A DNA stretch of 64,000 nt. Source: Bryum argenteum. Its lineage: Eukaryota; Streptophyta; Bryopsida; Bryales; Bryaceae. Numbering within the stretch: the first letter of the stretch is position 1; each line of letters begins with the position of its first letter. Both the position numbers and the translations under genes were made by a program. Location: contig CM073329.1 of assembly GCA_037043015.1 (NCBI GenBank), positions 3,488,648 through 3,552,647 of the forward strand, read 5' to 3'. A model generated the notes under the pieces. It saw only the letters and a list, made by a program, of their open reading frames with translations, had not been told where the DNA came from and searched no databases. Shown one piece after another: positions 4,585 through 31,921 of this stretch.

Positions 4585-4594
4585 TGTTTGCCTT
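4585..4594 (+). repeat. Left target-site duplication of the giant element
   Basis: TGTTTGCCTT, identical to 22,378-22,387. It directly abuts the left inverted repeat. Confidence 0.8.
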
Positions 4595-4650
4595 GGACGT
4601 TGCTACCGTGTGAGCGTTGAGCAGTGAGCGGTGAGTGGTGAGCGGTAAGA
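4595..4650 (+). repeat. Left terminal inverted repeat
   Basis: Begins GGACG and runs through TGTGAGCGTTGAGC into several GTGAGCG-type heptamers, ending GCGGTAAGA. It pairs with the reverse complement of 22,321-22,377. The clustered GTGAGCG units may be transposase-binding repeats (inference). Confidence 0.75.
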
Positions 4651-6510
4651 TTTAGAATTTTTAGGGCTGAATTTGTATTTTTAGTAAAAATATTTCTAAA
4701 AATAGTTTTTAAAAAAATTTGAGAATAATTTTCGAATATTCCGAATATTCTCAAAAATATTCGAATATTCTAGACTTATAACCGTGGATTTAGTGACCCA
4801 AACCCGTGGAAATAAGGCTTAAATTCCCTGAATTTGTGAGACTTGAGCTACAAAACTCTACAGTAAATCACAAATTTTTAAATGTCAAGAGGTTTCTAAG
4901 GTAATATTTCTAAGTGAATAGTACTCCGAGTTAGACAAAATGGCAAGGTCTGCTGTACATGTAGGTACTGGTATAATAATTTTTAATAAGTTGTGAAAAA
5001 ATATCACATATAGTGTGGAGCACCCAATCATTAGACTAACATATAGCATACGTAGATGAGGAGATATAAGGCATTCTAATCTGTAGCATGGTCTAGGATT
5101 CCTCCCTCCAGAATCTTTTTCACCTCGTTGAAACTAAGAGTGGCCGCGTGGATGAAGAGGTCAGCATCCGGATCAAATTTGCAAACCAATACCGTGATGA
5201 AGTATAGGTGCTTGCACGGTCGATATGGATCTCTCCTTCCTAACATAGAAATTGTTTTCTTGAACACTGGGCATGAGCAATCCGGGAATTTACTAATTGA
5301 AAGTCTATAAACTGCATCCGAATCCGACTCCAAGTCTACGATACATCCAAAACCAGGCTGCGGGATTATGGTCACTTTCATAATTTTGGCCCGCATTGAG
5401 GTGGTGAGACTCAATATTCTTCATGTGCTTTGAAGTCGCATTTGGAATGCGTTTCATGTTCTTCGATCTTCTTGACCTAGGGAACACGTCCGGCTTCTCC
5501 GGGACGGGAATATGGGACAAGTCTCTTGGTGGGGCAGCATTATTGAAAGTGCGGTTCGTAGGAAGCTGTTCTTTTTGTGGTAGTCGGAAGCCCGCATTCT
5601 CCAACGCCTCCATTTCATCACGTGTAAGGTTAGTCCCTATCTTTACAGGCTATATTGAAGGAATAGGGGGTCTGTCCTGGCTTAGAGAGAATGGCTCAAT
5701 CCACTTGCGACGATGACCCTTCACACACCTCTCAATATCATCTGCACAAAAAAAGAACTGATCAATTTTTCTTGGCCCCTCTTGAGGGTGTTGCCATACT
5801 CCGGTGTAAGTTGGAGCTGCGGTCGCCTTCCCCTTCTGAATAATTCGTGAGTCACATCTTTTTTTACTCTTTCGCATGATACCCCAACATGCCTTGGCGA
5901 ATTCTCCCTCAAACGGGCAATGTGCCACGACCTCTCGTCTACTTTAGTCTCCGAAGCAATGGTCACACGTTCAATACTTAGGTCCAGCAAAGGTGGATGG
6001 TATTGTCGGTAGCTCCTCAACTTCATCCTCTTCATGGATAGTACTCGATTTTTCGACAAGCTCGGGTAACCCTTCTTCTTCCATTCGAGGACGTGAGTAG
6101 CTCAAGGTGTCGTCTGTGCGTTTCATCATCGGCTCAATTGGAACATCACCTTACGTTTCTTGGATCCGAACACCTCGGCCCCCTCAAGGTGGGCGTCTCG
6201 GTACAAATCTTTTCTCGCTCCTGGATAGTCGAAGCGCCTTTGTGAGGCTCGATGGATCGCCGGTTCGTTGAGCTTTATGGGCAAGACGAAGTAAGAGTTC
6301 TTCGGATGTTGGTCCACTACCACCCTTGCCACCTCCGTTGAAGTCGTGGTAACCCACAACTTGGAGGAAAGCACGAACATAATCATCAACAGCTGCAACG
6401 TACAAGTCCCCACCCTTGTTGCCGGACGCTTGCAACCATTTGTTATGGATAGATTCCGCAAGGTTACATGAAGGCATCTCCGCCAACTCCTCTGCTGAAT
6501 ATTTATTTTC

Positions 6511-6751
6511 CTGCAAGGTGCAAAGACATTTGACTTAGTAACAAAAAAAGTTGATCACAATATCCAGAGCGGGTTAGACTTGCGTCACAGCAAGTCTGAT
6601 CTAAAAATAGATTATTATTATTTTTTTAAATGATTGATATTGAAAAAGATTAAGAAAGCAGAATATTCTATACTAAAAAGTAAATATATTTTTACGTAAT
6701 TATTAGACATCAATTCACGTGTATATAATAGCTACAGTGATGTGGACTCAC
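6511..6751 (-). other. Intron of the MULE transposase
   Basis: On the minus strand the donor GTGAGT follows ...ATGGAATTG and the acceptor TTGCAG precedes GAAAATAAATATTC. The flanking protein (GGFMEL | ENKYSAEELAEM) is continuous across the splice, which supports the call. The intron contains an imperfect copy of the palindrome found again near 14.4-15.2 kb. Confidence 0.75.
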
Positions 6752-8644
6752 CAATTCCATGAAGCCACCCCACCGCCTATATCGGAAATGCCGAATGCAA
6801 GCCGGTGTTCGAGGTGACCTAATCCAACTCGGAGGTGGCTTGCGCCGACGCCCACCACGCTCGGATCGCTTGAAGATCTTGTCTCCGCCTCGGCCATGGT
6901 GCGTGCATTTTTGTATTGCTTACAGAGATGTCGATGTTGATCCCGTAGTTCGCACGATGTATTGTTTGGTGTGTTTCTCTAGGGATTGCGTCCAATGGAA
7001 GTAGCAAGTCCGCTCGCGGCCTTCCATGGGCACTTTAGGGTCTCCGGAGCCATAAATGATCCGCACAGCTGCGTTCGGTTGGCTCCTGCGCACCGTCGGC
7101 CATGAACCTTGAAATCTGGGCGCTTCCACTCCGTTCCTGCCCATGACGTGGTTAAGATTCTTCCAGAAGACGATTTGAGCATCCCCGTCTTCAGACTGGA
7201 AATCACAGCATGCAATAGTTAGAATGCGGCAGATTTTCGAGTCATAAACGTGGCATGCCATGGTCGTCCAGTTCTTGACACGCTTGACGTGGTCGAACAT
7301 CATCCAAGCATGTGACAAGTCGCCTCCAGGCTGCATACGACGAACAAGGTCAACACCGCTTCCGGGGCCGACCTCGGACATCTTAAAAATGAACACTTTG
7401 TCACTTTCATCTCCCTGGCCCGGAAGCGGTTACGTTGGATGTAAGCCCGATTCTGCCGAGGCCTCGAAGCTTGGTGATCCCATCAAGAACATCGTATCTG
7501 CGCAAGTGCTTAAAAGTGGTAATACGATTCCTGACGCTGGGAGAGTTCAGCTCTTTACACTGATCGAAGATAGGTTCTAGCTCCTGGAGGGTGAGCTTAG
7601 AGGTTACAGGGTCACCTTCTTCACGGAGAAGTAAGTTTCCGAGTAAGTCCTTGCTAGCCTCCATAACTATTTTAGATGTGGTAGCTTGTGGGTTACGTTC
7701 TACGTACTCCTCTATTAACTCATCAATCATTTTACGTGCACATCTGTAGTCTCCGACCTTAACAGGATGTTCGTGCGTACCGATATGCACACATGCCCTC
7801 TCTTGACTCTCCTCTCCGAATACGTAGAATATTTTAGCATGGCATAAAGCAACACAAATGGGAGGTTCTTTGCAGATCTTACAGACCAGTGATGACGAAG
7901 GAGGAGGCGCTTGGCCGACCGAGAAGGGGTCCTTGGTAAAGCCCTCAAACTCCACCTCATTAACTTGTGATCTACGGTCAGGTCTTAGCAAGAATCCGCA
8001 GTTCCCATTGTGGCATTGAAGATGACCTACACAGTTAGAGTAGCGGAAAGACAAACCGAGGTTGTTACTGATGTTAGTAGTCATTGTCCTGGTCCACACA
8101 TGGCCGTTGTATCTTTTGTCCATCCCTTCCATAGATTTCGCTACCTTGGCAGCAGTAGTTGGTAGAACAGGAGGGAGAATGTACAGGACATCACCATTGA
8201 AAGTGTGAGGCAGGAAAGAGACGCTGTGAGTTCGGATGGAATGGAAATCTATTTTTTTGAGTATAGTTTTGTTGCGAGACATACTACCTAGTCTACAGAG
8301 CGAGGAAAGAATGTTTTTGGGTTTTACGAATTTGGACGCGGGAAGAGAAACGGGGGTGGTTCTAAGACTGTGTTCAGAACCTGAGGATGGAAGAGGCAGA
8401 TTCGATGATATTCGACGGGACTGGATGGACGATTTTCTTTCATCGTCAGATGAATCCGAAATATCAGGGTTGTCTTATTAGACACAGACGGACGTCAGAC
8501 AGACACAACATGTCAGACAGACATTGAGCCTCAGAATGTCTAATAGAATCTACAGAATCTTTTTTTTACCCTGGATTTACCCTGTCCCACGTTGCATCCT
8601 AGGTGGCTGCCACGTGGCCTGTACAACTCAGCAATACGCTTCGC

Positions 8645-8865
8645 GACTGCGCCACGTAGGACTGGACCAGCGGTCGCGTCATCTAGACCGGCGGTCGCCT
8701 TGGCCGGACCGGCGGACGCCTTCTCTGGACCGGCGGTCGCCTTAGCGACCGACGATCGCCCAGGTCGACCAACGATCGCCCATGAGCAACCGACGTTCGC
8801 CCCTGGGCGACCGCCGATACAGCGGATGGGCGAACGTAGCTCATAGGGCGACCGGTGGTCTACCC
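8645..8865. repeat. GC-rich near-palindromic array (element 1, left)
   Basis: Many copies of a short unit on the theme gGCGACCGgCGGTCGCc, separated by about 10-20 bases, in otherwise AT-rich DNA. Each unit is close to self-complementary and CpG-dense. Open frames here are artefacts of the repeat. Confidence 0.8.
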
Positions 8866-10295
8866 TCTAGAAACGAAGGACATGAACTTTGAAGAGCCAT
8901 AACTTTTTCATTCGGACTCTGTTTTTGACGAAATCACTTGGGTTGGGTCCCAAATTAAGCCTTGTTTATGTGGTAAAAATTGCACACTCACAAAATTAAG
9001 TATGAAAAAATGGCATGCATTTTAGTGAAGGGAGTACTTGTTTCTTGGGTTTTTAAACATTTGGCATGTTTTACCATTGCAAGCCTATTATGTGACATCA
9101 AAAAGGTTTTTGCATGATGTGTTTTAGACAAGTGTGATCTTTAGATGCATCCCACAATCTTTGTAGTTGGAAGTATTTTGATCCAGATAGTTTTAGTATT
9201 GGCTTTGCAATGATATTTCTACGATGAAAAAAGTGAAAAAGTGGATGATTTTTGAAGAGATAGATCTCCTTCAACTATTGTTAGATTTTGAATTTACTTT
9301 TTAGAATGGGTTCCAATTACAGTGTTGTATTGGTGATAGGAACCTCGATCCATTCGAAGATATATTGAAGATAAGGTATAATTTGAGTGTAAGGGGTCTA
9401 TTACTGGACTATATTAATTGTTTTGTAAACTATTTGGCAGTTTTTATCATTGCAAGACTACTATTCAAGCCATAGGGAAGTGTAAGGTGTATAGGGAAAT
9501 AGAGAGGGAGAGTAGTATTTATACTTTTCCTATGTATTTTATATGAAACATGATCAAAAGTATTGGCCTATAAGATGAAGGTAAGTAGTTTCTATTAAAT
9601 ACCTAGGATTAATTAAATTTGTTGAAATGGGGTGTGTATAAACCGAGGGAAGAGATGATTCACTAATGATAAAAACCGCCAAATATTTTACAAAGTAATT
9701 AATATAGTCCAAACTTAGATCCCTAGCACTTAAATTATACGTTATCTTCAATATACCTTCGAATGAATCGAGGTTTCTATCACCAATACAACACTCTAAT
9801 TGGAACCCATTCTAAAATGAAAATTCAAAATCTAACGATGGTTGAAGGAGATCTATCTCTTCAAAAATCATCCACTTTTTCACTTTTTCCATCGTAGAAA
9901 TATCATTGCAAAGCCAATACTAAAACTATCTGGATCAAAATACTTCCAACTACAAAGATTGTGGGATGCATCTAAAGATCACACTTGTCTAAAACACATC
10001 ATGCAAAAACCTTTTTGATGTCACATAATAGGCTTGCAATGGTAAAACATGCCAAATGTTTAAAAACCCAAGAAACAAGTACTCCCTTCACTAAAATGCA
10101 TGCCATTTTTTCATACTTAATTTTGTGAGTGTGCAATTTTTACCACATAAACAAGGCTTAATTTGGGACCCAACCCAAGTGATTTCGTCAAAAACAGAGT
10201 CCGAATGAAAAAGCTATGGCTCTTCAAAGTTCATGTGCTTCGTTCGAAGAGGGTAGACCGCCGGTCGCCCTATGAGCTACGTTCGCCCATCACCT
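8822..10295. repeat. Long inverted repeat arms of fold-back element 1
   Basis: Bases about 8,822-9,450 are repeated in reverse at about 9,665-10,295, nearly identical over some 630 bp, with a spacer of about 215 bp. The arms include 'gaactttgaagagccataac' and 'atggcatgcattttagtgaa'. A transcript crossing this would form a very long hairpin. Confidence 0.85.
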
Positions 10296-10505
10296 GGATC
10301 GGCGGTCGCCCCAACAGGAGGGGTCCAGATTGGCTCGCGGACACTTTGTCCTTGCCCCTAAGGTCGCCTAAAAGCGGTTGCCAGGGCGATCGCCGGTCTC
10401 CATACTGGACCGCCGGTCGCCTTCTCGCGGTAGCCAGGGCGATCGGCGATCGCAGTAGGCGACCGACGTTCGCCCCGGTGCGACCGTCAGTCGCCTAGCG
10501 AGGTT
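10250..10505. repeat. GC-rich near-palindromic array (element 1, right)
   Basis: Same unit family as at 8,645-8,865, lying just inside the other end of the element in mirror position. Confidence 0.8.
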
Positions 10506-11148
10506 GCCCACTGTGACGTGTATTTTGATTTTCCACGTCATTATCAACCCTACGCCACGTAGGAAAATAGCTTTTTACCTCAAGGTACATCTCAGCAAGT
10601 TTTTTACTATGTAATTTTTGGTACGGTCGACATTTTCGTCGACTCGACGTCTAACAGACATGTCCAATACGACAAATCAGACAGACATTCCCAAAATTGT
10701 GTCTAATAAGACAACCCTGCGAAATATCGATTCGAACTTGGAGTCCGGGTTCGACCTTGACACGAGCAAGAACTGGAACAACAGTGGAGATGGTAGAAGA
10801 ACTACGAGGAGTGAGGAGGACGGTGGAGGCGTTCATGACGGACTCTGTCAAACCATAGAGTCGATACTGACCGGGCCGTAGCTTATACATTTTAGAGTGA
10901 CTCTCTAAGGCGACTGGTTCGACAAGGACAGAGTAGTCGACAACATTAGTGTTTGGATCCAAGACCTGATTCTCTAACCAGAGAGACGACTCATCAAACC
11001 CGAAACGAACTGCTAGCAAAGACGGAGTGACTTCTGCCAACCCATCCACCCCCGGAGGAATGCAGATGGGAGGACTTAAGTCTTCAGACCTAATGGCAAT
11101 GACGTTTGCAGCGGGAGGCGAGATAGACGCAGGCGAGAAAGACAGCAT

Positions 11149-11661
11149 CAACTAGCGCGCGGAGAAAGAGAACCTTTGGTGCGTCACGGAGGTTCAAATA
11201 TGAGAAATTAATGTAATGTATTTGCATACGTATTGAACACTTATTTGTCGTAATTTCATATAATACAACCTACAGATACTCGATACTCCTAATCGTGAGC
11301 ATGATAATTTGAAGCACGTTACTTAGGATACTTAAAATATCCCGACTGACATAATTGCATTAAGTGCTTAGGATTATAAATATGAGATCCGTCGATAAAA
11401 TAAGTAGGGGTAGAAGGTGAAGTGACGGCGGCAGTCATTGTCAGAGTTTTAGTAGGATAATAGATGCGTTCAAAAGTTATCTTATTTTGGATTGTCAGAC
11501 ACGGTCACCGCGGAATGTTAGGGAATACACGGTGGCTGATTAGGGTTTTGCTAGCCGCATGGGAGAACTTAAAAAGGGACTACGAACTCATAGATCAGCC
11601 TCTTCACTTGCTCTGAGAACACTTTGAATCGTTAGGTGGAAGTTATCTCATTGAAAGCAAC
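11149..11661. promoter_or_regulatory. Divergent intergenic region between transposase and cargo genes
   Basis: The 513 bp between the transposase ATG (minus strand, 11,148) and the next gene's ATG (plus strand, 11,662) must hold both promoters if both were expressed from the element. A TATAAATA box-like sequence lies at about 11,375-11,382, plus-strand sense. No other element is recognisable. The promoter role is inferred from layout. Confidence 0.4.
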
Positions 11662-12393
11662 ATGGACGAAACCGCGGGCGGTAGTGATAGAGGAATGGAA
11701 ATAGGCCAGAGAAAGAAGAAGCGGAGGGGTGGTACGAAGTTTACTAATTCCAAAGCACAGAGGCGTAGTGCTTTGCGGAAGCGGGATGGGAGAAGCTGTA
11801 GTGGCGATGATCGGGAACCAGACGGGTACGATATCTTGATCGACGATGATGTGCTACCGCCATTCAGGCGGACCATCAAAATGAGATCGATCAACCTTGA
11901 CAGTGTCGTAGAGAGTGTTGGAACAGACGAAGTTGAAGAAGAGAACGAGGAAGGGCGTAGGAAGCAGTTCAAGACGTCTAGCGATGTTTGCGTGTATGGG
12001 GATGATGATGGAGCTGTGGACTCAACATATGAGGTAATGATATTCTGTACGATATAAGATTGTGAATATTCGTAATGACTAAGTAATTTCCGTATACAAA
12101 TATGGATTAATATGAACTTCTGATGATTTCAGGGCTGTAGAGGATCGGAAGAGGAATCCAGTCGATCAGGAGATCTAACAGTCATGTTTGATGAGAAAAG
12201 AGTCACTGATATGGGCGAGAGAGCAGAAGCCACTTTGGATCAGGAAACACAGAATGATGTAGCAGATGGATTTGAGACAAGTGCTGAAGAATTAGAGGAG
12301 GTACATGAGAAACCCTACTTCCTGGTTTACTGGGAAGACTTAGGGTTGGTTAAGTATACAATCAACGAGAATTCATTCTTCAATTCTATGTAG
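11662..12393 (+). CDS. Cargo gene A: 210-aa protein with basic N-terminus and acidic middle, function unknown
   Basis: Two exons, 11,662-12,033 and 12,133-12,393, joined by a GT-AG intron (GAG|gtaatg ... ttcag|GGC) that keeps the frame, giving 210 aa. Residues about 18-45 are strongly basic (GQRKKKRRGG, then RRSALRKRDGR) and look like a nuclear localisation or DNA-binding tail. Residues about 55-125 are rich in Asp and Glu. The C-terminus contains YFLVYWEDLG, faintly reminiscent of a chromodomain strand, but this is too short to claim. It is the first plus-strand gene after the divergent promoter and lies inside the giant element, so an accessory role comparable to the second gene of MuDR is possible. 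That is inference; no homology is recognised. Confidence 0.65.
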
Positions 12394-12724
12394 ATTGGGC
12401 TTTTGACAATTCGATGTAATTCGGACCTTTCACAATTCGAGGAAGGTTGGACACGAGACCGTGTAATATATATTATAGTGATTTTATAGTGACAACGGCG
12501 TTTCATTTTGCGGGCCCCAATCTCGAAGTTGCGGGTCTCAATCTCATAATTCCGTGTCCTAAGTACCTACTTCCGGAGTAAGTATATAATGGAAATGTAA
12601 ATGCAGTTTTTGAATAAAGATTACGAAGTGATCTAATAAATGTAAAAATAACGTAAATATTGAATGTGTCTATAGCAAAGACGAACAAGCGAGGGTACAA
12701 CTTAGGTTGGGGGGTGTGGGCTGA

Positions 12725-13095
12725 GCGGGGGATGGGAATCGGCGGGGGTCGGGTCTCCGCGAGGGCCAAGTGGCCGGTTTTCGGCAAGGGCCGGGTCTCC
12801 GCAGGGGCCCGGTCAGGGTCTCCGCAGGGGCTCGGCTAGGGCCGGGTCTCCGCAGGGGCCCGGTCAGGGTCTCCGCAGTGGCTCGGCTAGGGCCGGGTCT
12901 CACCAGGGGCCCGGTCAGGGTCTCGGTCAGGGGCCCGGTCAGGGTCTCCGCTGGGGCTGGGGAAGGGCCGGGTCCTCGCCGGGGCGAGGCAAGGGCCGGG
13001 TCTCCGCTGGGGCGCATCTCGGGAGATCCCATCTCCGCTGCGGCGCATCTCGGCGGGGGCCGGATGTCGGCTGGGCGCATCTCGGCGTGATGAAA
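12725..13095. repeat. GC-rich minisatellite, period about 51 bp
   Basis: Tandem units containing GGGTCTCCGCAGGGGC and CTCGGCTAGGGCCGG; 'ctcggctag' recurs at about 12,831 and 12,882, giving a 51-bp period. Because 51 is a multiple of three, long proline/arginine-rich frames stay open on both strands, and I do not take these as genes. It lies upstream of cargo gene B. Confidence 0.8.
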
Positions 13096-13390
13096 ATTCC
13101 TTCGAGGCATTGATGTTGGCTGGCTCTTCGTTTGCGTGAGGGGTCGGTCGACGAAGCTCCGCCTCTAATCGCGGTGTAGTGACGATCGCAATTTGTCTTT
13201 TTGTTACTTTTATCAACGCCAATGCAGGGAAGAAATGACAATAGGCTCGGCGACTGTTGACTAAAAATACATGGAGGGAACAATAGTCACTGAAGAATGG
13301 GAATTTCTCATCTGATACTTGTGAGGTTTGTGAGGACGTGTTTTGTTGAAGTTGATGAGTGTTATCAGAAATTTGTAGGAAGAAGACAGA

Positions 13391-15757
13391 ATGGCGGATC
13401 CAATCGAAGAAGAGGTGGCAGTACAAGGAGGAGGAGAGCACATTGAAGAAGTTTTGGAAAATGTGAGTTCACAGTCGACCGATTCTAGTATTTGCTCTGC
13501 ATTTGACAGGGCACGCCGTTATGCTCCAAGAGATGCACTGAAGACAGAGGCGGAGCTGGAGGCCTGCAACTTCAAAAATATCAAGGTATCTTCAAGATCT
13601 CTTACTGCAACCTGTAATTGTATGTTAGCTAGAAACCCTAAATTGGATTTTTCAAAATTGGATGTCTGCTGGATGCGCTCTGTGGAACTTGCGATCCGGG
13701 AAGCTGGCTCCTCCTGCGATCCCGCGATGCGCCAGTGATGGTCCTCCTCTGATTCGGCAAGGCTGCAAGCCCTTTCCAAGCTAGAAGATTGAACTTGCTG
13801 GCTGCACATCCGTAGCGCTAGTGAATGTCGTCCTGGGATTCGTCGAACTCCGAGCCGTGATCGTGCTGTGAGGTGGAGGGTGCTGGATAGACATACCAGT
13901 GGTCGTGATGGTGTTCTTGGAGTCCAGTTGTTTTTCAAATTAGGGTACGTGCTTGATGCGCTCTGTGAATAATGAAAGGGAGGATGTTGGCTCCTCCTGC
14001 GTAGCTTCCGATAAGGTCCTCGTGGGATTCACGCACCCTGGGAGCCCTCTGCAAGCTGGAAGCTCGAAGTTGCAGGTTGTGCTGTGTTGGGCGCGGGTGT
14101 TCCTCGTGGTATTCCGCTCGAGCCATCGAGCCCTCACCGAGCTGTGAGCTGGAGGGTGGTGGAATTACATCCCCACGGTGGTGATGGTGTTCTTGCTGTC
14201 GATGCATGTGGATACGGGCCAGGCCAGATCGCCAGCAAACCAGTGCGGGCAAGGAGGCTTCTCACTGAGCCCGAGCATGTTGGATCCCCTTCTTGACATG
14301 AGCTTGAATGTTTTGTGGTCAAGTGTGATTGAAGATTGTTGATTTGAGCGGACGAGTGCCAGGCTTGCGTCGACGCAAGTCTGACACTTGTCCGCCAAGT
14401 TGGTCTTTTTTTTGCCAATTTTCCGTGCTTGCTTGCTGCGTTCTGTTCATGTTGGGATCGGGATGGCTGGCTTCGTGCCCATGATGATCCTCTGTGGGAT
14501 TCACCCACCCTGCGAGCCCTCTGCAAGCTGGAGCTCGAAGTTGCAGGATGCCTGCGTTGGGCGCGTGGTGGTCCTCGTGGTATTCCGCTTGAGCCTTCGA
14601 GCCCTCACCGACCTGTGAGCTGGAGGGTGGTGGAATTACATCCCGACGGTGGTGATGGTGTTCTTGCTGTCGATGCATGTGGATACGGGCCTGGCCATAT
14701 CGCCAACAAACCAGTGCGGGCAAGGAGGCTTCTCGCTGAGACCGAGCATGTTGGATCCCCTTTTTGACATGAGCTTGAATGTTTTGTGGTCAAGTGTGAT
14801 TGCAGATGGTTGATTTGAGCGGACGAGTGCGAGACTTGCGTCGACGCAAGTCTGACACTTGTCCGCCAAGTTGGTCTTTTTTTTGCCAATTTTCCGTGCT
14901 TGCTTGCTGCGTTCTATTCATGTTGGGATCGGGATGGCTGGCTTCGTGCCCATGATGATCCTCGTTGGATTCACCAACCCTGCGAGCCCTCTGCAAGCTG
15001 GAGCTCGAAGTTGCAGGATGCCGCGTTGGGCGCGTGGTGGTCCTCGTGGTATTCCGCTCGAGCCTTCGAGCCTCACCGAGTTGTGAGCTGGAGGGTGAAT
15101 GAGCTTGAATGTATTGTGGTTTTCTGTGGATGCAGATTCAGGTTTTGAGCGGACGAGTGCCAGACTTGCGTCGACGCAAGTCTGACACTTGTCCGCCAAG
15201 TTGGTCTTTTTTTTGCCAATTTTCCGTGCTTGCTTGCTGCGTTCTGTTCATGTTGGGATCGGGATGGCTGGCTTCGGGCCCGTGATGGTCCTCCAGGGAT
15301 TCACCGACCCTGCGAGCCTTGCAAGCTGGAAGCTCGAAGTTGCAGACTATCCTGCGTTGGGCGCGTGGTGGTCCTCGTGGTATTTCTCTGAGCCTTCAGG
15401 CCTTCACCGAGCTGTGAGCTGAAGGGTGCCTGCTGTAAAAGTGGTATTCTTCATACCCCTCCAAATACCTTACCTATGATGTTGTAACTCGCTGAAACCC
15501 TAAAAATTCTCAATACTGCTCCCAATACTGCTCTCAATACTGCTCCCAATACTGCTCCCAACACTAACTCAGAAATCTCAACACTTAAGTTTAACACCTT
15601 TACATACAAATCATTTCATAATGTCATTGAAAAAAATGATAGTGGTACAAGCATTTCCTGCCCTGGCAGTGCTACCTGGTCCTTCCAGGTACCATGAACT
15701 GACCTAAGCCGTGGTTCCTGTCCCTATCACACACCACACACACGCTCCTAGCTCCAG

Positions 15758-15791
<34 letters not shown>

Positions 15792-16956
15792 CCAAAACTC
15801 CCCCAAACCCTGGCCGCCAAACCCTATTCTCCAACCCTAGCCGCCTTCATCCATCCACAGGATTTCATCCATCCACAGGATTTCATCCCAGCGCAGGATT
15901 TCATCCCAGGACAGGACTTCATCCCAGCACAGGATTTCATCCCAGGACAGGACTTCATCCCAGCACAGAATTTCATCCCAGCACAGGATTTCATCCCAGA
16001 ACAGGATTTCATTCCATCACTTAATAGACTACTAGAGGATTTACTCTTTTACTGGCTAGGTAAATCCCCGGTTAACACCTGCTTCATGCTCTGTGTGCAA
16101 GTTGGGATCAGTAATGCTGGCTTACCTGCGTAGCTTACGTGATTATTGTTGTTGGATTCTCGAGCCTTCGAGCCCTGACCGGGCTGTGAGCTGGAGGGTG
16201 TTGGAATCACATTCCCACGGTCGTGATGGTGTTCTTGGTTTGAAGTTGCCAAATTCTTTTTTTATGTTTGGGTGCTTGCTTGATGCGGTCTGTGCATATT
16301 CGGATCATGGATGCTGGCTCTTCCTGCGTATCGCCCGTGGTAGACCTCGTGGGATTCAGGAAGGCTGGACCTTGTGGGATTCAGGAAGGCTGCGAGCCTC
16401 TTGCAAGCTGTGAGCTTGGGAATGCTCCTCCACATTCCCTCGGTCGAGATGGTGTTCTTGGTGTTGATGCTTGAGAATTTGGGCATGGCTAACTTGAGCA
16501 TTATGATTTGACTTCATTTTGCGTAAATTATGATTTTTGTGAATGTTTTTGTGATCTAAAGGTGGATTCATTAAGTATATGTTACTTTAAGTTTGGGTTT
16601 TTGTAATTTGGTACTTATTTCTCTGGTTCTTTGGGTTTTTGCAGGATCCATTAAATCGGGTTGCAGATCATACAGATGAGGATTCCGATGGAGATAGCGA
16701 CCTCTCTGTTTTGAGAGATCATGTGTTGGCTATAGTGGAGTCCCGTCGATTAGTTATCGCATTGACTTCGATTCCAATTACTCCACCTCCTGCCTCACCT
16801 GTCCGTCACACTTCATGTAGCGACGTTGATCGGCTCGCAGTTAACATGCGAATTAAAAAGAATGAGGCCAGAGCTCGTCGTATACAGGAAAAGGAATTTG
16901 CTAGACTTGCACCTAGACGTTCTCCGCGACTTGCCGCAAAGATGCAATCTCTTTAG
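13391..16956 (+). CDS. Cargo gene B: 168-aa protein with basic C-terminus, function unknown
   Basis: Exon 1 (13,391-13,585) starts MADPIEEEVAVQ and ends FKNIK at AAG|gtatct. Exon 2 (16,645-16,956) follows ttttgcag and reads DPLNRVADHTDEDSD to a stop, in phase 0. The protein is acidic at first and ends in a basic segment with ARRIQEKEFARLAPRRSPRLA, likely nuclear. No domain is recognised. The 3.06 kb intron is inflated by tandem repeats. The next gene starts 140 bp downstream with an ATG placed right after a good acceptor (tttcag|ATG), so exon 1 could also splice in phase 0 straight to the ParB-methylase gene, skipping exon 2. Confidence 0.55.
13586..15430 (+). repeat. Diverged tandem repeats within the intron of cargo gene B
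   Basis: Units of about 470 bp (one shortened to 330) share 'tggtctttttttt..gccaattttccg' at 14,401, 14,872 and 15,202. Each carries 'gtgagctggagggtg' and 'ggtgatggtgttcttg'. Older, more diverged copies extend left to 13.67 kb and right to 16.45 kb ('cttgatgcggtctgtg'). Short open frames inside are repeat artefacts. Confidence 0.8.
14361..15184. repeat. Three copies of a long perfect or near-perfect palindrome
   Basis: GACTTGCGTCGACGCAAGTC, which reads the same on both strands, is centred at about 14,372 (one mismatch), 14,843 and 15,173, once in each tandem unit. In the last two copies it extends by at least one further paired base on each side. An interrupted relative (AGACTTGCGT-cac-AGCAAGTCT) lies at 6,576-6,596 in the transposase intron. 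Confidence 0.8.
15761..16012. repeat. (GA)n microsatellite and 18-bp minisatellite
   Basis: A pure GA run at 15,761-15,789 is followed by about eight copies of an 18-bp unit (CAGGATTTCATCCCAGCA and variants) from about 15,858. It lies in the long intron of cargo gene B. The in-frame reading (DFIPAQ repeats) is judged a by-product. Confidence 0.85.
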
Positions 16957-17096
16957 TTTTACCGAAACACTACATGATATGTTTATCATATACTAAGTTA
17001 CAAAAAGATTATGTACTCATTTTTATATATGATTATTCATTTTGCACTATCTTATGCTTATTGTGGTGTGTTGTATTTGATTTCGTGGATTTTCAG

Positions 17097-20000
17097 ATGA
17101 GCATAGCTCAAGTCCATCTCAATCAAGATGAAGAAGTCAACCCGCTTCATCTTAACCCTCCACAAAGTGCATATTCCGTACTTGATAGTGTGAGAAATGA
17201 TGATGGCTTGAGAAGTGGAGTTCCGCAAGAGAGTCCTGATCCCCAACCTCTGGAAGGCGAATGCAATGCAGTTACAAGTGACAATCCTCTTGAAGCTGCA
17301 GTTATTCATCTACCATCGGAAGACCATGATGGACACCAATCTCTCTCGGATGATGAAGAATCTACTTTGCCTGAAGGTGTCAACGTTGGAAGCATTCACA
17401 TGCCCGCCCATCTTCAGAACAAGGACCCTGACTGGAGTGCTAACGAGATGCGAATCCTTCACAAGAGTGACTCGATTGCAATCATCAACAGGTTACGCTA
17501 CAAACCTGTTAAGAAGTCCCGTATGCTAATTCCACTTTGTCGCCTCGTTTGTTATCCGAAGGTCCGACCGATCTCCGAACAAGACGTCCGAAAGCTGGAG
17601 AATGAGTTCAACAAAGGCTACCGCGAAGGTGATCGAGTGATGTACGTGTCTCCCTTTGACAGAAAAGGCCGTCAAAAAATTGTTGACACTCAAGATGCAC
17701 TTTGGACTAACCCGCTTTAATTTGGAAAGCCGCGAATGAAGAGTTCGAGAGTACGCTGCGGGCTGATCCAGATCTTCATAACCTTTGTGACAAATATTTC
17801 TATGTCTACGAAGGAAACCACCGTGTTACAGCGTGGATGCGCCATATCGAGAGGTATCACAAAAATGATCCCTCCTGGTACATTTCGGTTGATTGCATCG
17901 TACTCGATGCCCGTGGAGAGAGCAATCTACTTCTCGATGCTATGAACGACATTAACTGGTAAGTGAATGTCGCATTTTTTTAAAGTTGTTTGTTTTATGA
18001 TTTTGTCATATACAATTTTTCTTATCTTTCAATCTATGTTGTAGGTCCACTGAACATGATCACGTCGAGGACAGTTTGTGTGCGAAACTCCAACGCATGA
18101 GGAAGTTTGGGAAGTTGAAACTCGAAGATTTCAAGGACGTCATTTCTCCAGAAGATTTCAGGATCTGTAAGAACGCCAAAGCCAAAAAGGAGACGTGGTA
18201 TCCTGTCACAATAGACGTTTTTGTAAAATTTCTATACGCGGTACGTTCACTTTATATGTGCTCGACTCCTTTTCTTTAAACTTATTTAAAACATCTTCTC
18301 ATTTCTCTTTTGGTTGTTATACAGAGGAGGTTAGCAAAGAAATCTGACGACGCTGAAGCTACGTACTACGCCACGGTTCCAAAAGATAAACAAACCGGAC
18401 CAGGAGTATGGAGTGCCATGGATAACGCAATCAAGGCTGAAATCAAAGTAATTTGTGGCAAGAATTTCGACAAAATGGTCGCTGTGGCCAATATCAAACT
18501 CGGGAAAGTCTTTGCGAGAGAGGTATTGTTGGATGGGTTCTTCGATTTCTCACACTCTAACTGTCTCTACGTTCTACTGCTCTAATCAAAACTGTGATTG
18601 TGATGTGCAGATTAATTCTCATTACAACCAGAACCTGAAACCCGATATGACAATCGATCGCTTACAAATGGTGGCCACTACTAACGTGCACTTCGATTTC
18701 AAGGGAAAGTGGCTCCAATGGTGGAACTCATCAGACAAAGTTCGACGATCATTTCGATTCCCACAGGAACGCCCGATGAAAGACAAAGCTCTGGTTTCAT
18801 TTCTACATCGTGCTTCTCTTTGGGCACATGTAACTTTCATATTTGTTCTGTGATTACAGTATTTGAGATTATATGTTACTTTTAATACTAACATGTTTCA
18901 TGTATTCTCAGCTTGAGCAATCACTTGAAAGTGAATTGCAGAATCTGGTAGATAACGAGAACCTCAACATTGAGTGGTCTAGTGTTGTCCTCAAGCCATC
19001 CGCGTACATCGAGAAGTGGAGGTTGCTCTTATGGGAGAAGGCATTCGGAAACTATCTTGCTCCAAATGCAACTCCGAAGTTCATTAAAGGCTCGGATCTT
19101 CATAAGATTACTGGAGGCAAAGCTACAATTAAGCGACTTTTATTCCGGTATGTAATTTTTTCTTTCAAATATTGTTGAATGTGGAACTTCAACGTACTCA
19201 ATTTTCCTTATCTAATTTGTTTACTTTTTTGTAGGTACTTAAAGCAAGAGCTCGTTGCCAAGGGTGCATTAGCTTCGTTCTCCGTTCCAATGGAGTTCGA
19301 AGACGTTGCAGTGACGAATGATCCACGTAGCTTTTTCTCCTCAGCCCAGCAAGAGCGGTTTACCAACTCCCAATTGACGACCGGTGGATGGTTCCTTGAG
19401 TGCGACAACAACTATGTGCCCAAGGAGGAGAAGCATCTTCTTCGGAATCTCGCTTTAAACCCAGCTGACTCTGAACCGATGGACATTGACGACGATGACG
19501 ATGACGACCTCTCCATTCAGCCAGTCGCTCCTGATCCAATCTCTCCTCCTTCTTCACCGGTTGCAGTGCCCAAGTCTCGTGCAAACAGGAGGCGACGCAA
19601 CGCTGTTGCGGAGCCTGTTGTAGATCTTCAGCAAGAATCCGAAGATATTGCTCCCCTCCAAGAAGACATTGCAGCCCCTGAAGATGCTGATCTGACTCAG
19701 GCTTCAGAGGGTGCGACAAACAATGCACATCGACGCAGTGCAAGACTCACTCAACTTTCAACAGGTGGACTTACGAATGCTGGGTCCCCTCTTCAATCAT
19801 TCACCGTTGACCACAACTCTCAGCAGTCTCCGCGTCGCCTCAGCCAGCCAGTATTTGCCAAACGTCCTCTTCCGAAACCAAATCACATTGGTAGCAGCTC
19901 GTCGTCAAAAATTTCAGTCACTCTGCCAATGTATCTCGAGAAGGGCAACATTGGAGATTTGGTTCATCAGTCGTCGAAGACTGCAAAATGGGATTCGCAA

Positions 20001-21425
20001 ATCCTGGATATTGTCGAGCACATCAAGAAGGTATAATTTCATACATTTGTCATTTTTAATCTCCCTAATTACGTTTTGTACTTGTGAATCAAGTAACCAC
20101 TTTCTAATTATTTACGTGTACTTCAGATTGGCAAAGACCGTAAGTACCCGTGTTCGGCGATGGAGTTTGATCCGAAGCATCCAGGGATTGATCTCATTTT
20201 TGCAGATGCTCCCGAGAACTTGCCTGTACCGGGTGTGTCTCCAACAGAAATTCCATCCTGGAACCGGCGGGAGAAAACCTACTTTGAGAGCCTCTTTGTG
20301 TTTGCCGCCTATCATTTGACAGACGTTGGAGCCATTCTTCTGATGCATCCCAAATGTCGTAGAATCGAGCGTACTCTCGATTCTGAGTCTGCAACATATA
20401 GTTTTCGTCTAGTTCGAGACTGGTGGGGATATAATCCCCTACCTATGGCCTCTACCGTACCCAAACCGAAAGAGGTACGGAACAGATTCTAGTTTCAAAT
20501 TTCACGACTCATAATTATTTCCGTCTATGCTTCTATGTTAACGTATTTGTACTTGTGTTTTGCAGACTCACTGCTTCCATATCGAAGTCTATGTTCGTAA
20601 AGGGTATGTTTCGAAGTTCCAAACTCGGCAAGTGTCACACGCATACGCGGGTGTGGCAATCGTACCTGATGAAGAAGACCACCTCTGTAACTTTGCAGAG
20701 AAAGAAACATTGCGTTATCGTCCGGACGGTACGCCCTGGCGAGGCTCACGAGAGAAGTACCCCTCCTTCATTCAATTTTTCGTCGATTGTCTCACGGACG
20801 ATGGAGGTATTGTATTCGACTGGAGCGCAAGTACAGGTAATGTTTCCATAATCACTACTTTAGAATTTGTTTATACATTTCGCATTTCTAACGTGTGATT
20901 CTGATTTTGTAGGTGCATCTGTGATTGCTTGCGCGCGCTCCAACCGACACCTCATCGCTATGGAACCGGACGAAGAAATCTTTGATGGCGTACTAGCGGA
21001 GTACAAGAATGGTCCTCCCGGTGATGAAGAAAGTGGAGAATCGGCCCCTCCCGCGGATTATGACTCTGACGAACCGGTCGTGAAGAAGCCACGGAAGTTC
21101 ATTGGTGTGTAATACCATCGTGTATTCTGTTTATCGATTTTTAATTACGCACTTACAATTCGGTAGTACTGACTTTCCTTGTACTTTTAGGATCGCAGGT
21201 CTGAAGGAGCGATTGACTCGCAACGCTCATCTCTACAAGAGCCCACCATCAAAATTCACCCTTCCATCGAACGCCGAGCGTCTTGCTCAAGAGTTTGTTC
21301 AAGCTCCATCTCCTATTTTGTTTGACACTCCACGTCGACGTTATAACAATAGTGTGCTTAAGTTTATAGACTTTGAGGCTGATCAGTGTGATCAGCACTT
21401 TAATGGTACTACACCGTCTGCCTAG
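17097..21425 (+). CDS. Cargo gene C: ParB-like plus permuted DNA-methylase-like fusion protein
   Basis: Ten exons: 17,097-17,958; 18,045-18,240; 18,325-18,522; 18,611-18,829; 18,912-19,147; 19,235-20,030; 20,127-20,474; 20,566-20,836; 20,913-21,104; 21,199-21,425. All have GT-AG borders and phases that match. With one apparent -1 frameshift at 17,717-17,720 (CTT|TAA) they give about 1,181 aa. Residues about 230-287 look ParB/sulfiredoxin-like: YFYVYEGNHRVTAWMRHIER, then WYISVDCIVLDA. A linker has an acidic run (MDIDDDDDDD) and Pro/Ser-rich sequence. The C-terminal domain has IDLIFADAPENL (about 858-868, the place of a DPPY motif) and then GGIVFDWSASTGASVIACAR...LIAMEP (about 1,033-1,065, like the SAM-binding motif I). 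That order is the one seen in permuted N6A/N4C methylases. The catalytic DPPY is DAPE, so activity is doubtful. Function inferred: DNA binding or modification linked to the transposon. Confidence 0.65.
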
Positions 21426-22320
21426 TTTGTGATTTGCTTTCTGATAGGTACTGGACATGGTAGAGCCAGACATTCGTAGTTTACTATGATCTATTACTTA
21501 CATACTATCTATATGAGTTTTGCAATATATATGGTTTTATATTTTTATTTATCGTTATTTTCGTTTAAAGCTTAAGCTACATTAAGTGTTTCAACTATTA
21601 CTCTAAGTATCTGAATACAGTGTAATCTAAGCCATGCATGCCTTTAACGGTGATGTCAGCCCTAATTTTGTTGCAACTTCTTCAACTCCAATTTCGATGC
21701 ATCGGTGTATGTAAATGTTTAAGTTTTAAACTCAATGCAGACTAAAAATTTTATAATGTTTTTTTTTTATTTTCCATTGGAGTGAGTGAATCTTGCCAAT
21801 GTTGGTAGAGGCTATAGTTCAATATTTGTATAGCTCAGGATAGCTGCTGTACGACGCAGTGCAACGCTCAAACGAGGCCGAGGAGAATCGAACTCGGACC
21901 ACTACAATGCCTCGTGAATGTCTTTCTGTACACCTTACAAGGAGACACGGAAGGACGACTTGTAGTTATAAACTTCAGATTATATAAACCGAAGCATTTA
22001 CGTATAATTCTGATAAATGTAATAGGAAATTGATGACGTCAGCCCTAATTATACTCTACAGCTTCAAATTATTAATGTACATTTATTGAATTGTATGGGT
22101 TTCACATGATGATGTCACCCCTAATGTAAGGAACTTTTATTTAAACTTGCAAATGTGGATTACTTATGAAATATTGTAGGACCCCATTACAATATATCGA
22201 AATAGATAAAGGACCTATGCCCACGGGTTTGGGTACTTTTATACCTAAAAATAACCATTTCAAAATTTCGGAACCACCCATTCCATGGTAATAGGGTCAC
22301 TAACTTTAAAAAAAAAATTA
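21426..22320. other. Right subterminal region of the giant element with repeated motif
   Basis: No gene. A motif on the theme GATGAYGTCASCCCTAAT occurs three times in the same direction, at about 21,651, 22,033 and 22,110. TTAGGGCTGA, the reverse complement of its core, occurs at 4,661-4,670 just inside the left end. Repeated subterminal motifs are common transposase-binding sites in plant DNA transposons; that role here is inference. Confidence 0.5.
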
Positions 22321-22377
22321 TTCTTACCGCTCAAACTTTACCGCTCACCGCTCAACGCTCACACCGGTGGTTTCCCC
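22321..22377 (-). repeat. Right terminal inverted repeat
   Basis: On the minus strand it begins GGGGAAACCACCGG and continues TGTGAGCGTTGAGC, GGTGAGCGG and GCGGTAAGA, matching the left end at 4,595-4,650. The plus strand next reads TGTTTGCCTT, the target duplication. Confidence 0.75.
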
Positions 22378-22387
22378 TGTTTGCCTT
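22378..22387 (+). repeat. Right target-site duplication of the giant element
   Basis: TGTTTGCCTT, identical to 4,585-4,594. Confidence 0.8.
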
Positions 22388-25496: not shown

Positions 25497-26367
25497 TACA
25501 GTCCCCTACATATTGCTTACGAATTCTAGCCGCAGTGAAGTACAGTAGAAAAACTGTAAAACTTTGGAATGCGAGAACTTGCTCAAAAATTGATGGATTT
25601 CAGAATTTCAAAGAGCGTTGGAATGCTAGAGAAGTGTACTTCAATATCACAGAAAAAAATATACATATAAAGGTCAAAAACAAATAAGCATTTTTATTTC
25701 CTTACACACTATCTACCACCTAGTACTTCCACCCCTAGCTGAAATCACTGCTCTAATTCGATCGGGCATGGTTGAAATAAGGCGTTGCAACTGCTCTAAG
25801 AGAACCTCATTCCATACTTGTTGAACGCATTCTATCTATTCTAGCTTACTTTTTGGCATGGTGTGATAACAAGGCCGATCTTTAAGTATCTTCCACATGT
25901 TTTCAATGGGATTTAGATGAGGTGAGTACGGAGACCAATCCAACTCCTTCATGCCATGAGCTAGTCTCCAATCCTCTGACAACTTACTTCGATGAATAGG
26001 AACTTCATTTTTCATGAGTATGAGCTCATGAGGACTATCGTGCATGAAATAAAACCCGCTCAAAGTACTTTCATACACATTTTTTACAAAATGTGCAGCA
26101 CTTCTTTCTCCTTGAGGCATAATAACTAATGGAGATTTGTCAGAACCAGTGAATGCACCCCAAATCAGGGTTGTCTTATTAGACACAATTTTCGGAATGT
26201 CTGTCTGATTTGTCGTATTGGACATGTCTGTTAGACGTCGAGTCGACGAAAATGTCGACCGTACCAAAAATTACATAGTAAAAAACTTGCTGAGATTTAC
26301 CTTGAGGTAAAAAGCTATTTTCCTACGTGGCGTAGGGTTGATAATGACGTGGAAAATCAAAATACAC

Positions 26368-28414: not shown

Positions 28415-28870
28415 AAATCGCGCGACCGCCAATACAGCGGATGCACGAACGTCGGTCGCTAGGGCGACCGCCGATCCAGTTGATGGGCGAACGACGCTGA
28501 CATGGCGACCGGCGGTCTACGTGATGGGCAAGGCACTCAAGGAGAAAGTGTCCGCGAGCCTCCGCGCACCCCCTCCTGATGGGGCGACCGCCTATCCAGC
28601 CGATGGGCGAACGTCGGTCGCTTGGGCGAACGTCGGTGGTTAGGGCGACCGCCGATCCAGTCGATGGGCGAACGACGCTGATAGGGCGACCGGCGGTCTA
28701 CGTGATGGGCAAGCACCCAAGGAGAAAGTGTCCACGAGCCTCCGCGCACCCCTCCTGACGGGGCGACCGCCGATACAGCGGATGGGCGAACGTCGGTCGC
28801 TAGGGCGACCGCCGATCCAGGTGATGGGCGAACGTAGCTCATAGGGCGACCGGCGGTCTACCCTCTTCGA
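28415..28870. repeat. GC-rich array with internal duplication (element 2, middle)
   Basis: The longest array. A block of about 210 bp containing 'gatgggcgaacgacgctga', 'ggcggtctacgtgatgggca' and 'gagaaagtgtcc' is present twice (from about 28,460 and 28,645). It therefore grew by tandem duplication. Confidence 0.8.
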
Positions 28871-30244: not shown

Positions 30245-30525
30245 CAAGAGGGTAGACCGCCGGTCGCCCTATGAGCTACGTTCGCCAATCACTGGATCGG
30301 CGGTCGCCCCATCGAGCGACGTTCGCCCATCGGCCAGATCGGGCGGTCGCTTAGGGGCTTAACGTCGGCCGCTTATGGGCGATCGTCGGTCGACCTGGGC
30401 GATCGTCGGTCGACTTGAAGCGTCGTCTTGTCGCTAAGGCGATCCCGGTCCAGAAGAAGGCGATCCCGGTCTAGATGACGCGACCGCCGGTCGATCCCCT
30501 ACGGGCGTGATCGCAAAACCATATT
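30245..30525. repeat. GC-rich near-palindromic array (element 2, right)
   Basis: Units with CGACCGCCGGTCG-type cores plus a variant 'gggcgatcgtcggtcgac' in tandem near 30,380. Confidence 0.8.
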
Positions 30526-31921
30526 TTCGAGCCGTCACACACTACGTGGCAGCCACGTAGAATGCAACGTGGACAGGGTAAATCCAGGGTAAAAAAAAGA
30601 TTCTGTAGATTCTATTAGACATTCTGAGGCTCAATGTCTGTCTGACATGTCGTGTCTGTCTGACGTCCGTCTGTGTCTAGCAAGACAACCCTGCCCCAAA
30701 TCATCACATATGTTCTTCCAGATTTGAAGGTAGGCGCCAAACATTCTGCCAAATATTTTTCATGAGGTTTTCGCCATATTCGAATTTGTCGAGAATTCTT
30801 TTGAAGTTCAAATGACGATTCATCTGTCCAAATGACCTTGTACCAATCTTCTTCCGTCCAATGCTTATACTTGCGAGCAAATGCTAACCTAGTTGCTTTA
30901 TGCACTACATTGAGATATGGCTTTCTTGAAGCTATGCGATTTCCAAAGCCTAGCTTACGTATATATTTTCGCATGGTATTGTGATGCACCTGATATTTTG
31001 CAGCAAGACTAACAAGACGTTGACGTTGATCTTGATGAATGCCTTGAGTCAAGATGCGTAGCGCGCGATCAAACAATTTGCACAATCTGTGTCCCCCACT
31101 TTGAGTTGTCATGCAACCATATATCTTCCATTTAGTGATAACTGTTGAAATTGTCGAGCGAGGCATGCTCAATTTCTCTGCAATATCAGATGGCCTCATC
31201 CCACCTTGGTGCATTCCAATAATGAGTGATCGCTCCTCATTTGTAAGTGTTCGCTTCCACATTGAACCTTGATGTAAACTGTGCTCAACTAGTTCAAAAG
31301 AAAAACATTTCATTAGTTGAGATATGCAAACGGTATGCGACGGTGTGCGAAAGTTCTCATAAACACCAGCCTAGTACACACTCAAATGCTAACACAATCA
31401 TCTATACTCAATTGATGCTCACATATTAGTTGCTATACAAAGAGATGAGTTGGGAGACTCACTTTCAATAAACAGAGAACTCTGCTTTCTAATGAGCACA
31501 CAAATCACAAGACTGGAACCCTCACATGAAGATGACCAAGCTTGGAGTCAACTCAGAGAAGCAGCTCTCACTTAAAGATATTATTTGATCAAATCACCTC
31601 TCCACACAGGTAGGACTTCCAAATCAACTCATACATCACACTGCTGGTACTCACTCATGGACAATCCCCATTTTATAAGCCACTACCATTTATACAATGG
31701 TGTATGCATGGGTATGCTCCTCATCATTCATAAGCCCCCTTTACAAAATACCACATGTCTAAAACATATTAGAGCATTGATTGCTCAATGCGGCATTGCT
31801 AACACCAAACATACTTGGTTGTGTGTGTCAGGCCACTTTTCAAAGCAACATTTTTTGGCCATTTGGTGGATGGTGGTGAAATTCTTATCACCATAATGAA
31901 TGCTCCACGCCTTCATGCAAA

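Follow-up and report, generated by a model that had tools for sequence, protein, structure and literature searches.

A MULE-like element of the moss Bryum argenteum with a predicted ParB-methyltransferase accessory gene and internal palindrome arrays

Two kinds of described transposon come close to the element reported here, a 17.8 kb insertion in the genome of the moss Bryum argenteum that carries, besides a transposase and a first accessory gene (gene A), a second accessory gene (gene B) whose protein probably combines a ParB-like part with a DNA methyltransferase-like part. The first kind is represented by the VANDAL elements, which carry vanA, vanB and vanC (PMC5735166, PMC6446971). A motif of VANDAL21 forms tandem repeats in the introns of VANB21 and VANC21 and upstream of VANA21, VANC binds these motifs and causes loss of DNA methylation, and VANA is more conserved than VANC (PMC5735166), which has the domains DUF1985 and DUF287 (PMC5735166, PMC10398659). 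The second is Sola1-1_Ec32 of Ectocarpus, with an accessory protein of 1,104 amino acids bearing ParB-like and N4-cytosine/N6-adenine (N4C/N6A) methyltransferase domains; its authors suggest that accessory proteins of the ParB-methyltransferase type may bind the transposon that encodes them and alter it epigenetically, and cite proteins of the same kind from green and red algal transposons (PMC12477816).

The whole stretch of DNA analysed here (the window) comprises 64,000 nucleotides, positions 3,488,648 to 3,552,647 of the forward strand of contig CM073329.1 (assembly GCA_037043015.1; C9:3488648-3552647 in the contig names used below), and the genome searched for related copies has 258.8 Mb in 25 contigs. 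With the LEAFY SAM domain as query, five places in this genome exceed the cut-off, as fits a land plant or a close relative of land plants, and the best of these loci reads KPKMRDYVH, with the D of mosses at the position where flowering plants have H. Twelve loci were fetched for comparison, ten of 20 kb and two of 16-17 kb; they were picked for having matches, so that they are not an unbiased sample of the copies. Like the VANDALs, the element is a plant Mutator-like element (MULE) in its general plan, with a transposase, two accessory genes and an element-specific motif in intron tandem repeats (PMC5735166), and its accessory gene diverges more than its transposase (PMC5735166, PMC10398659). 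The motif arrays likewise lie in non-coding tandem repeats. It differs from them in that gene B is ParB-methyltransferase-like, the motif is palindromic and an anti-silencing activity is in this case a prediction; Pfam found no VANC-type protein (DUF1985) in gene B, nor in those exons of gene A that were scanned. With Sola1-1_Ec32 it shares a large size and an accessory gene opposite the transposase that encodes about 1,100 amino acids (here 1,087 codons in exons 1-9), whereas the latter is a Sola1 element of a brown alga and the present one, from a moss, is MULE-like, with 10-bp duplications, a second accessory gene and palindrome arrays (PMC12477816). The word stem palindrom occurs zero times in that paper. 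Within the literature searched, coverage of which was partial, we found no ParB-methyltransferase in a moss or in a Mutator-like element, nor this element itself. Algal transposons already provide the protein type and VANDALs the logic; what is new, within that literature, is the combination of a moss, a MULE-like element and palindrome arrays. In this regard, the original prediction of an unusual multi-gene MULE holds for the dedicated cargo, the presence of several genes being familiar from vanA, vanB and vanC (PMC5735166, PMC6446971).

Gene B and its domains

Splice sites conserved over 11 aligned copies, together with the positions of stops and starts, lead to two plus-strand genes, A and B, in place of the three proposed at first (Table 1). 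Exons 1-9 of gene B are open for 1,087 codons in the copy C3:19.39, and each of the other ten aligned copies, the window included, has at least one stop or shift within these exons; in the window there is a frameshift in exon 1, and exons 2-9 are open. The median ratio of non-synonymous to synonymous divergence (dN/dS) of exons 1 to 9 is 0.16, 0.03, 0.08, 0.12, 0.13, 0.21, 0.15, 0.12 and 0.10, respectively (15-21 pairs from 7 of the 11 aligned copies, four frameshifted exons being excluded and stop codons skipped). Gene B is under purifying selection.

The C-terminal domain of gene B matches PRK13699 of NCBIfam (E 0.044) and PHROG methyltransferases, the latter at 4.6e-5 and 1.0e-4 with window exons 7-9 and at 6.5e-5 and 6.7e-4 with C3:19.39. 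At another place in the genome lies L033, a diverged relative with 28% identity, which scores 32.5 bits against Pfam N6_N4_Mtase, above the cut-off, and covers positions 1-214 of the 221 of that profile. When the window, C3:19.39 and L033 are joined in one profile, the search of the PDB finds DpnA (1.8e-5) and CcrM (1.4e-4 over 16-239, nearly the whole domain). A relationship of gene B with the beta-class methyltransferases of the CcrM/DpnA type therefore appears well supported, and the beta-class N6A/N4C domain of the known transposon proteins would have its counterpart here, the element sequence alone remaining below the Pfam cut-off. Unlike DpnA and CcrM, gene B is a spliced plant gene with a degenerate motif IV and a ParB-like N-terminus. 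As for the latter, all seven of the seven exon 1 proteins match phrog_1033, a ParB-like partition protein (best E 0.0055), and the N-terminal exon has the motif YEGNHRVTAW; the ParB label is probable, and it is helped by the fact that the Ectocarpus protein shows the same pairing of domains (PMC12477816).

A number of observations weigh against this identification. Against N6_N4_Mtase, gene B of C3:19.39 reaches 13.8 bits and window exons 7-9 reach 16.3 bits (E 0.0099), both below the cut-off of 26.7. When L033 is left out and the profile holds just the two element copies, the PDB search gives no methyltransferase, so that L033 is what carries this link. None of the 32 places found in the genome with PF01555, the Pfam methyltransferase search that yielded the loci L033-L040 and L042, lies within 2 kb of the at least 150 listed gene B exons, as compared by hand. 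For the N-terminal part, a genome search with ParB_N (PF02195) gives one place only, at E 1.49, exon 1 has no match in Pfam, and no relative of the ParB exon was found in the PDB. Finally, motif IV of gene B in the element is DAPE or DVPE, a degenerate version of the usual DPPY. With these points counted, we still regard a ParB-methyltransferase identity of gene B, as judged from profiles and motifs, as highly probable.

Active DNA methyltransferases have an intact motif IV of the form (D/N/S)PP(Y/F/W), which is not the form found in gene B, and a non-catalytic role is therefore possible. The protein could be a catalytically dead methyltransferase that serves only as a scaffold binding DNA or S-adenosylmethionine, a reading which fits both the DAPE/DVPE of this element and the DIPE of a second family described below, as well as a motif I that reads STGAS and not GSGTT as in DpnA. 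Purifying selection on exons 7-9 (median dN/dS 0.10-0.15) and the motif DTPF of the relative L033, nearer to the usual motif IV, speak against it, and we hold it to be a serious, if doubtful, possibility. Bacterial-type amino-methyltransferases are also present in other eukaryotes, such as the N4-methylcytosine (4mC) methyltransferase of Marchantia; this enzyme and its rotifer counterpart are host genes as far as known, whereas here the gene would be part of a transposon. In its bacterial-type origin gene B would resemble the 4mC methyltransferase of bdelloid rotifers (PMC8885841).

Two further groups of loci bear methyltransferase-type genes. Very similar copies of one such gene are dispersed over C2, C3, C6, C8 and C10 (L035-L040 and L042), with motif IV DIPE in the three loci where the exon was picked up, and they probably represent a further family of transposons that has this accessory gene. 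L033 (C4:20498341) and L034 (C7:9878472) are two nearly identical loci with motif IV DTPF, and may represent an amino-methyltransferase of either the host or a transposon.

The divergence of gene B is not that of the transposase. Between C2:8.06 and three other copies, synonymous divergence (dS) of the transposase is 0.26-0.34, while against the same three copies it is at least 1.48 or beyond estimation in gene B exons 2, 5, 6, 8 and 9; in C5:8.99, the matched transposase segment is 100% identical to the probe and the ParB segment 60%. Such low transposase divergence next to high gene B divergence indicates, at the level of the aligned sequences, that gene B was exchanged between elements or else that the transposase was homogenised.

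Palindromes and a possible role of gene B

The palindrome AGACTTGCGTCGACGCAAGTCT occurs three times in the tandem-repeat array of the window, one of them with one change, and a variant lies in the transposase intron (Table 1). Allowing up to 6 mismatches, the window and the 12 fetched loci (13 sequences together) contain 54 instances, where block shuffles contain 0.55, and the pattern AGNCTTGCGTCGACGCAAGNCT has 253 sites in the genome against 0 for the reversed control. When 50 of the sites among the matches listed, all on C1, were grouped into 26 clusters, 13 fell in the slot expected from the listed gene A and gene B hits (random mean 0.41). The length of the array unit varies among copies and the flanks of the unit diverge, while the core persists.

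The two halves of the palindrome seem to change together. Across 17 distinct cores, taken in element orientation, 87.7% of the cells pair, 13 cells show two-sided change (3.5 in shuffles), and covariation scores 0.268 compared with 0.099 in shuffles, 0 of 500 of which reach the observed value; for two further measures of the core, the shuffles that reach it number 20 and 16 of 500. Covariation of the outer arms, over 29 distinct array variants, is 0.385 against 0.232 in shuffles (0 of 500), and at most 0.186 when the arms are slid. These arms, with which the array copies become inverted repeats of 46-50 bp, differ in sequence yet are complementary in the window, C1:5.06, C1:12.52, C4:23.48, C9:5.16 and C3:0.10 (one of two without a gap); complementarity is partial in C3:19.39 and absent from C4:15.67, C1:17.15, C1:23.26 and the intron copies. 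Five of the 13 sequences have the core in both the transposase intron and the array (the window, C1:5.06, C3:0.10, C9:5.16 and, in degenerate form, C4:15.67), and the remaining ones, several of them partial, have it at one place or none. That the variant of the palindrome tracks the lineage of gene B is only suggestive, the intron copy of C3:19.39 being too diverged to count.

These data allow us to propose a model in which the gene B protein would bind the palindromes of the element through its ParB-like part, and the methyltransferase-like part, active or not, would mark or open the element's own chromatin, so that the transposase and the accessory genes would escape silencing. Gene B would then do the job of VANC in the VANDALs of Arabidopsis with different, bacterial-type parts, and the swapping of diverged gene B cassettes among elements with a common transposase would change target specificity. 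The proposal joins the VANC model (PMC5735166) with the suggestion of the Ectocarpus authors (PMC12477816). Taken as a whole, the explanation of the locus as a moss MULE-like element with gene B as a palindrome reader acting against silencing has, in our estimate, an even chance of being right; the anti-silencing or self-marking role as such, which is argued by analogy, we put somewhat lower, as possible and short of probable. Equally tentative is the broader notion of a land-plant transposon that would encode its own epigenetic reader or writer of bacterial ancestry together with the recognition sites, with an exchanged specificity cassette, as a convergent counterpart of VANC. If true, plant transposons would have evolved anti-silencing self-recognition more than once, with unrelated proteins, and bacterial-type DNA amino-methylation machinery would have been brought into a mobile element of land plants. 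The gene B protein and the palindrome would make a concrete, testable pair, the family, with more than 100 copies among the matches listed and probably more, allowing the divergence of protein and site to be compared, and ParB-methyltransferases like those reported from algal transposons would have in the palindrome a candidate site to bind.

Several points tell against such a reading of the palindromes. Binding by the gene B protein is so far an association in sequence data. The instance counts span related sequences; the other 13 of the 26 clusters adjoin no listed gene, which may reflect incomplete gene lists or sites outside elements; and two of the five covariation measures are not clearly above shuffles, neither for the core, with the 20 and 16 of 500 given above, nor for the outer arms, where 84 and 369 of 500 shuffles reach them. 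The palindromes of C4:15.67, C1:17.15 and C1:23.26 are all degenerate, no array palindrome is present in C2:8.06 or C5:8.99, and none was found in C10:9.57, which was fetched in part. Symmetric change can also come from quasi-palindrome correction. In this regard, the palindromes might be RNA hairpins of the introns, as a source of small RNA or in splicing, or they might simply result from repeat expansion, with such correction keeping them symmetric, the targets of gene B being unrelated. Their position in inferred introns favours this view, as does the symmetric change of outer arms whose sequence varies between copies; the presence of the core in both the transposase intron and the array in 5 of the 13 sequences, and its better conservation compared with the flanks of the repeat unit, go against it, and we judge it unlikely.

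No more likely is a function of the gene B protein in transposition itself, by assembling ends or sites or through replication timing, in the way that ParB gathers parS, and not in silencing; ParB-like proteins do cluster such sites. There is a precedent in mudrB, an accessory gene required for integration (PMC6446971). The palindromes of the moss element are, however, internal and in inferred introns, not at its ends, and C1:17.15 and C1:23.26, which have ends and perfect duplications and no transposase, keep a broken gene B.

The element and its copies in the genome

The interval delimited by the two ends is almost certainly a single mobile element. As first proposed, terminal inverted repeats stand 17.8 kb apart, with 4608-4662 pairing with 22310-22364 over 55 nucleotides at 80%, the outermost bases of the two ends being unlike, and an identical 10-bp duplication, TGTTTGCCTT, lies directly outside each end. 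Eight copies, the window included, had both ends located; in seven of them the duplication is perfect, at the same relative positions and with a different sequence each time, and measures 10 bp except in C3:0.10, where it is 11 bp. The one exception, C4:15.67, has no duplication. The eight copies are 11.5-17.8 kb long: besides the window, six measure 14.0-16.5 kb and one 11.5 kb. The 17.8 kb length first reported is thus correct as a span and not typical in size, being inflated by a nested insertion of 2,255 bp.

The search for other copies with the gene set between such ends, suggested at the outset, found them in the same genome. Scored with five peptide probes, 9 of the 12 fetched loci keep the order transposase (minus strand), gene A exon 1, ParB and methyltransferase (all plus strand), in agreement with the claim that a single mobile element carries a conserved set of dedicated accessory genes; C1:17.15 and C1:23.26 are without transposase and gene A exon 1, and C10:9.57 was fetched in part only. 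Genome matches number at least 114 for a 355-amino-acid piece of the transposase (86-97% identical apart from the self-match), at least 150 for gene A exon 1, at least 145 for the stretch in which gene B exon 1 starts and at least 150 for the gene B exon 7 stretch; the left end has at least 46 among the matches listed (40 of 622 candidates scored) and the right end at least 42 (40 of 439). C1:5.06 and C1:12.52 are 96.5-97.1% identical over two long aligning stretches, and this near-identity suggests that the family moved fairly recently. C1:17.15 (L023/L024) and C1:23.26 (L021/L022) both show the two ends and perfect duplications, have kept gene A in part and contain a gene B interrupted by stops or shifts; by their gene content, they are non-autonomous elements that retain the accessory gene B. 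By a hand count, 38 of the at least 114 transposase matches among those listed lie on C1, the largest contig (44.09 Mb, 17% of the genome), which may be repeat-rich and is perhaps a sex chromosome.

The flanks of the window element, joined and used as query, match two places without an element, C10:9863675-9864095 (query positions 1-419, 77%) and C9:3483396-3483699 (36-342, 73%), and both matches run across the junction at 209. By these matches, the flanks are a dispersed repeat, and the empty site that had been sought is represented by two related sites in the same genome, not by the same locus in another plant.

Capture of host fragments as in Pack-MULEs, frequent as it is in MULEs (PMC6446971), was ruled out, as 9 of the 12 fetched loci keep the same genes in the same order and orientation under purifying selection, and its likelihood is very slight. 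Least likely of all is that the ends belong to two unrelated solo elements, which had been named with the original prediction as grounds for giving it up and which the high copy number of the terminal repeats might favour: exact duplications here and in six of the seven other copies, and contiguous flanks at the two related element-free sites, contradict it.

Table 1. Positions of the element and of its parts in the window
Feature	Position	Strand	Remarks
Whole element	4595-22377 (17,783 bp)	.	ends and flanking duplications
Target site duplication, left, TGTTTGCCTT	4585-4594	.
Target site duplication, right, TGTTTGCCTT	22378-22387	.	identical to left
Terminal inverted repeat, left	4595-4662	+	GTGAGCG heptad repeats
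Terminal inverted repeat, right	22310-22377	-
Transposase gene	5721-11151	-	two exons in intact copies, exon 1 of 708 amino acids from Met; broken in window
Palindrome core variant	6576-6597	.	in transposase intron
Nested hAT-like foldback insertion	8465-10719	.	in transposase; CAGGG ends, 22-bp perfect inverted repeat, 647-bp arms
Gene A	11662-16956	+	protein without Pfam match; exons about 11662-12033, 12133-12348, a putative one near 13373-13650, last 16645-16956
Tandem-repeat array	14017-15428	+	before gene A last exon; inferred gene A last intron
Palindrome core (22 bp), array copy 1	14361-14382	.	one change; centre of 46-50-bp inverted repeat
Palindrome core, array copy 2	14832-14853	.
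Palindrome core, array copy 3	15162-15183	.
Gene B (predicted, ten exons)	17097-about 21424	+	conserved GT/AG sites, 11 aligned copies
Gene B exons 1-5	17097-17958, 18045-18240, 18325-18522, 18611-18829, 18912-19147	+
Gene B exons 6-10	19235-20030, 20127-20474, 20566-20836, 20913-21104, 21191-about 21424	+	putative last exon
ParB-like region (probable)	17097-17958	+	gene B exon 1; EGNHRVTAW motif in other copies
Beta-class DNA methyltransferase-like domain	20127-21104	+	gene B exons 7-9; motif IV DAPE, motif I FDWSASTGAS; open in window

Transposase, gene A and the window copy

The divergent layout described at first, with a minus-strand transposase and plus-strand spliced genes, was found again; the identification of the transposase as MULE by its sequence was not. 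Exon 1 is open for 708 amino acids from Met in five of the seven copies with a donor site found, a second exon following, and its dN/dS is 0.10-0.18 (ten pairs from five copies). Neither this exon nor the C-terminal exon matches any Pfam model, MULE included, at E up to 5. PF10551 (MULE) finds 74 places in the genome, none of them on the at least 114 listed transposase copies, as the lists were compared by hand; a profile of three MULE frames of the same genome, a shallow one, scores the transposase no better than shuffles, hhalign against MULE profiles, shallow as well, gives nothing, and a PDB search finds no relative. By eye, D, D, CxxH and NLAES (E) motifs can be recognised, as well as a CxC...CxH pattern like SWIM. 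MULEs make target site duplications of 9-11 bp. The present element has the 10-bp duplications (7 of 8 copies) and the terminal inverted repeats (55 nucleotides, 80%) of a MULE and lacks a match to PF10551 or another Mutator Pfam model. Assignment by domain was therefore dropped for want of support from Pfam, the PF10551 places or the profile of the genome's own MULEs, and we describe the element as a high-copy, MULE-like cut-and-paste DNA transposon, a label resting on the duplication and the inverted repeats.

Gene A starts at 11662 (MDETAGG). Its exons 1, 2 and last are conserved, the exon near 13373-13650 less so, and the exons scanned have no Pfam match; median dN/dS, taken over 7 copies in both cases, is 0.21 (exon 1) and 0.38 (last exon). 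Gene A stops only about 140 bp (16957-17096) before the ATG of gene B, an AG directly precedes this ATG in 10 of 11 copies, and the two genes may share a transcript via alternative splicing.

The transposase frame of the window copy is broken by the nested insertion (8-bp duplication CGAAATAT) and by a frame change near 7407-7429; as exon 1 of gene B is also frameshifted, this copy is probably not autonomous. In eight fetched copies that align on both sides, position 8465 joins 10721, so that the insertion is absent there. The latter is presumably hAT-like and non-autonomous, as its features suggest, and carries GC-rich subterminal repeats. Outside the element, repeats at 28604-28852 and 30376-30475 resemble the nested insertion, suggesting related copies, and minus-strand frames at 25836-26270 and 30615-31370 look by eye like pieces of a Tc1/mariner transposase.

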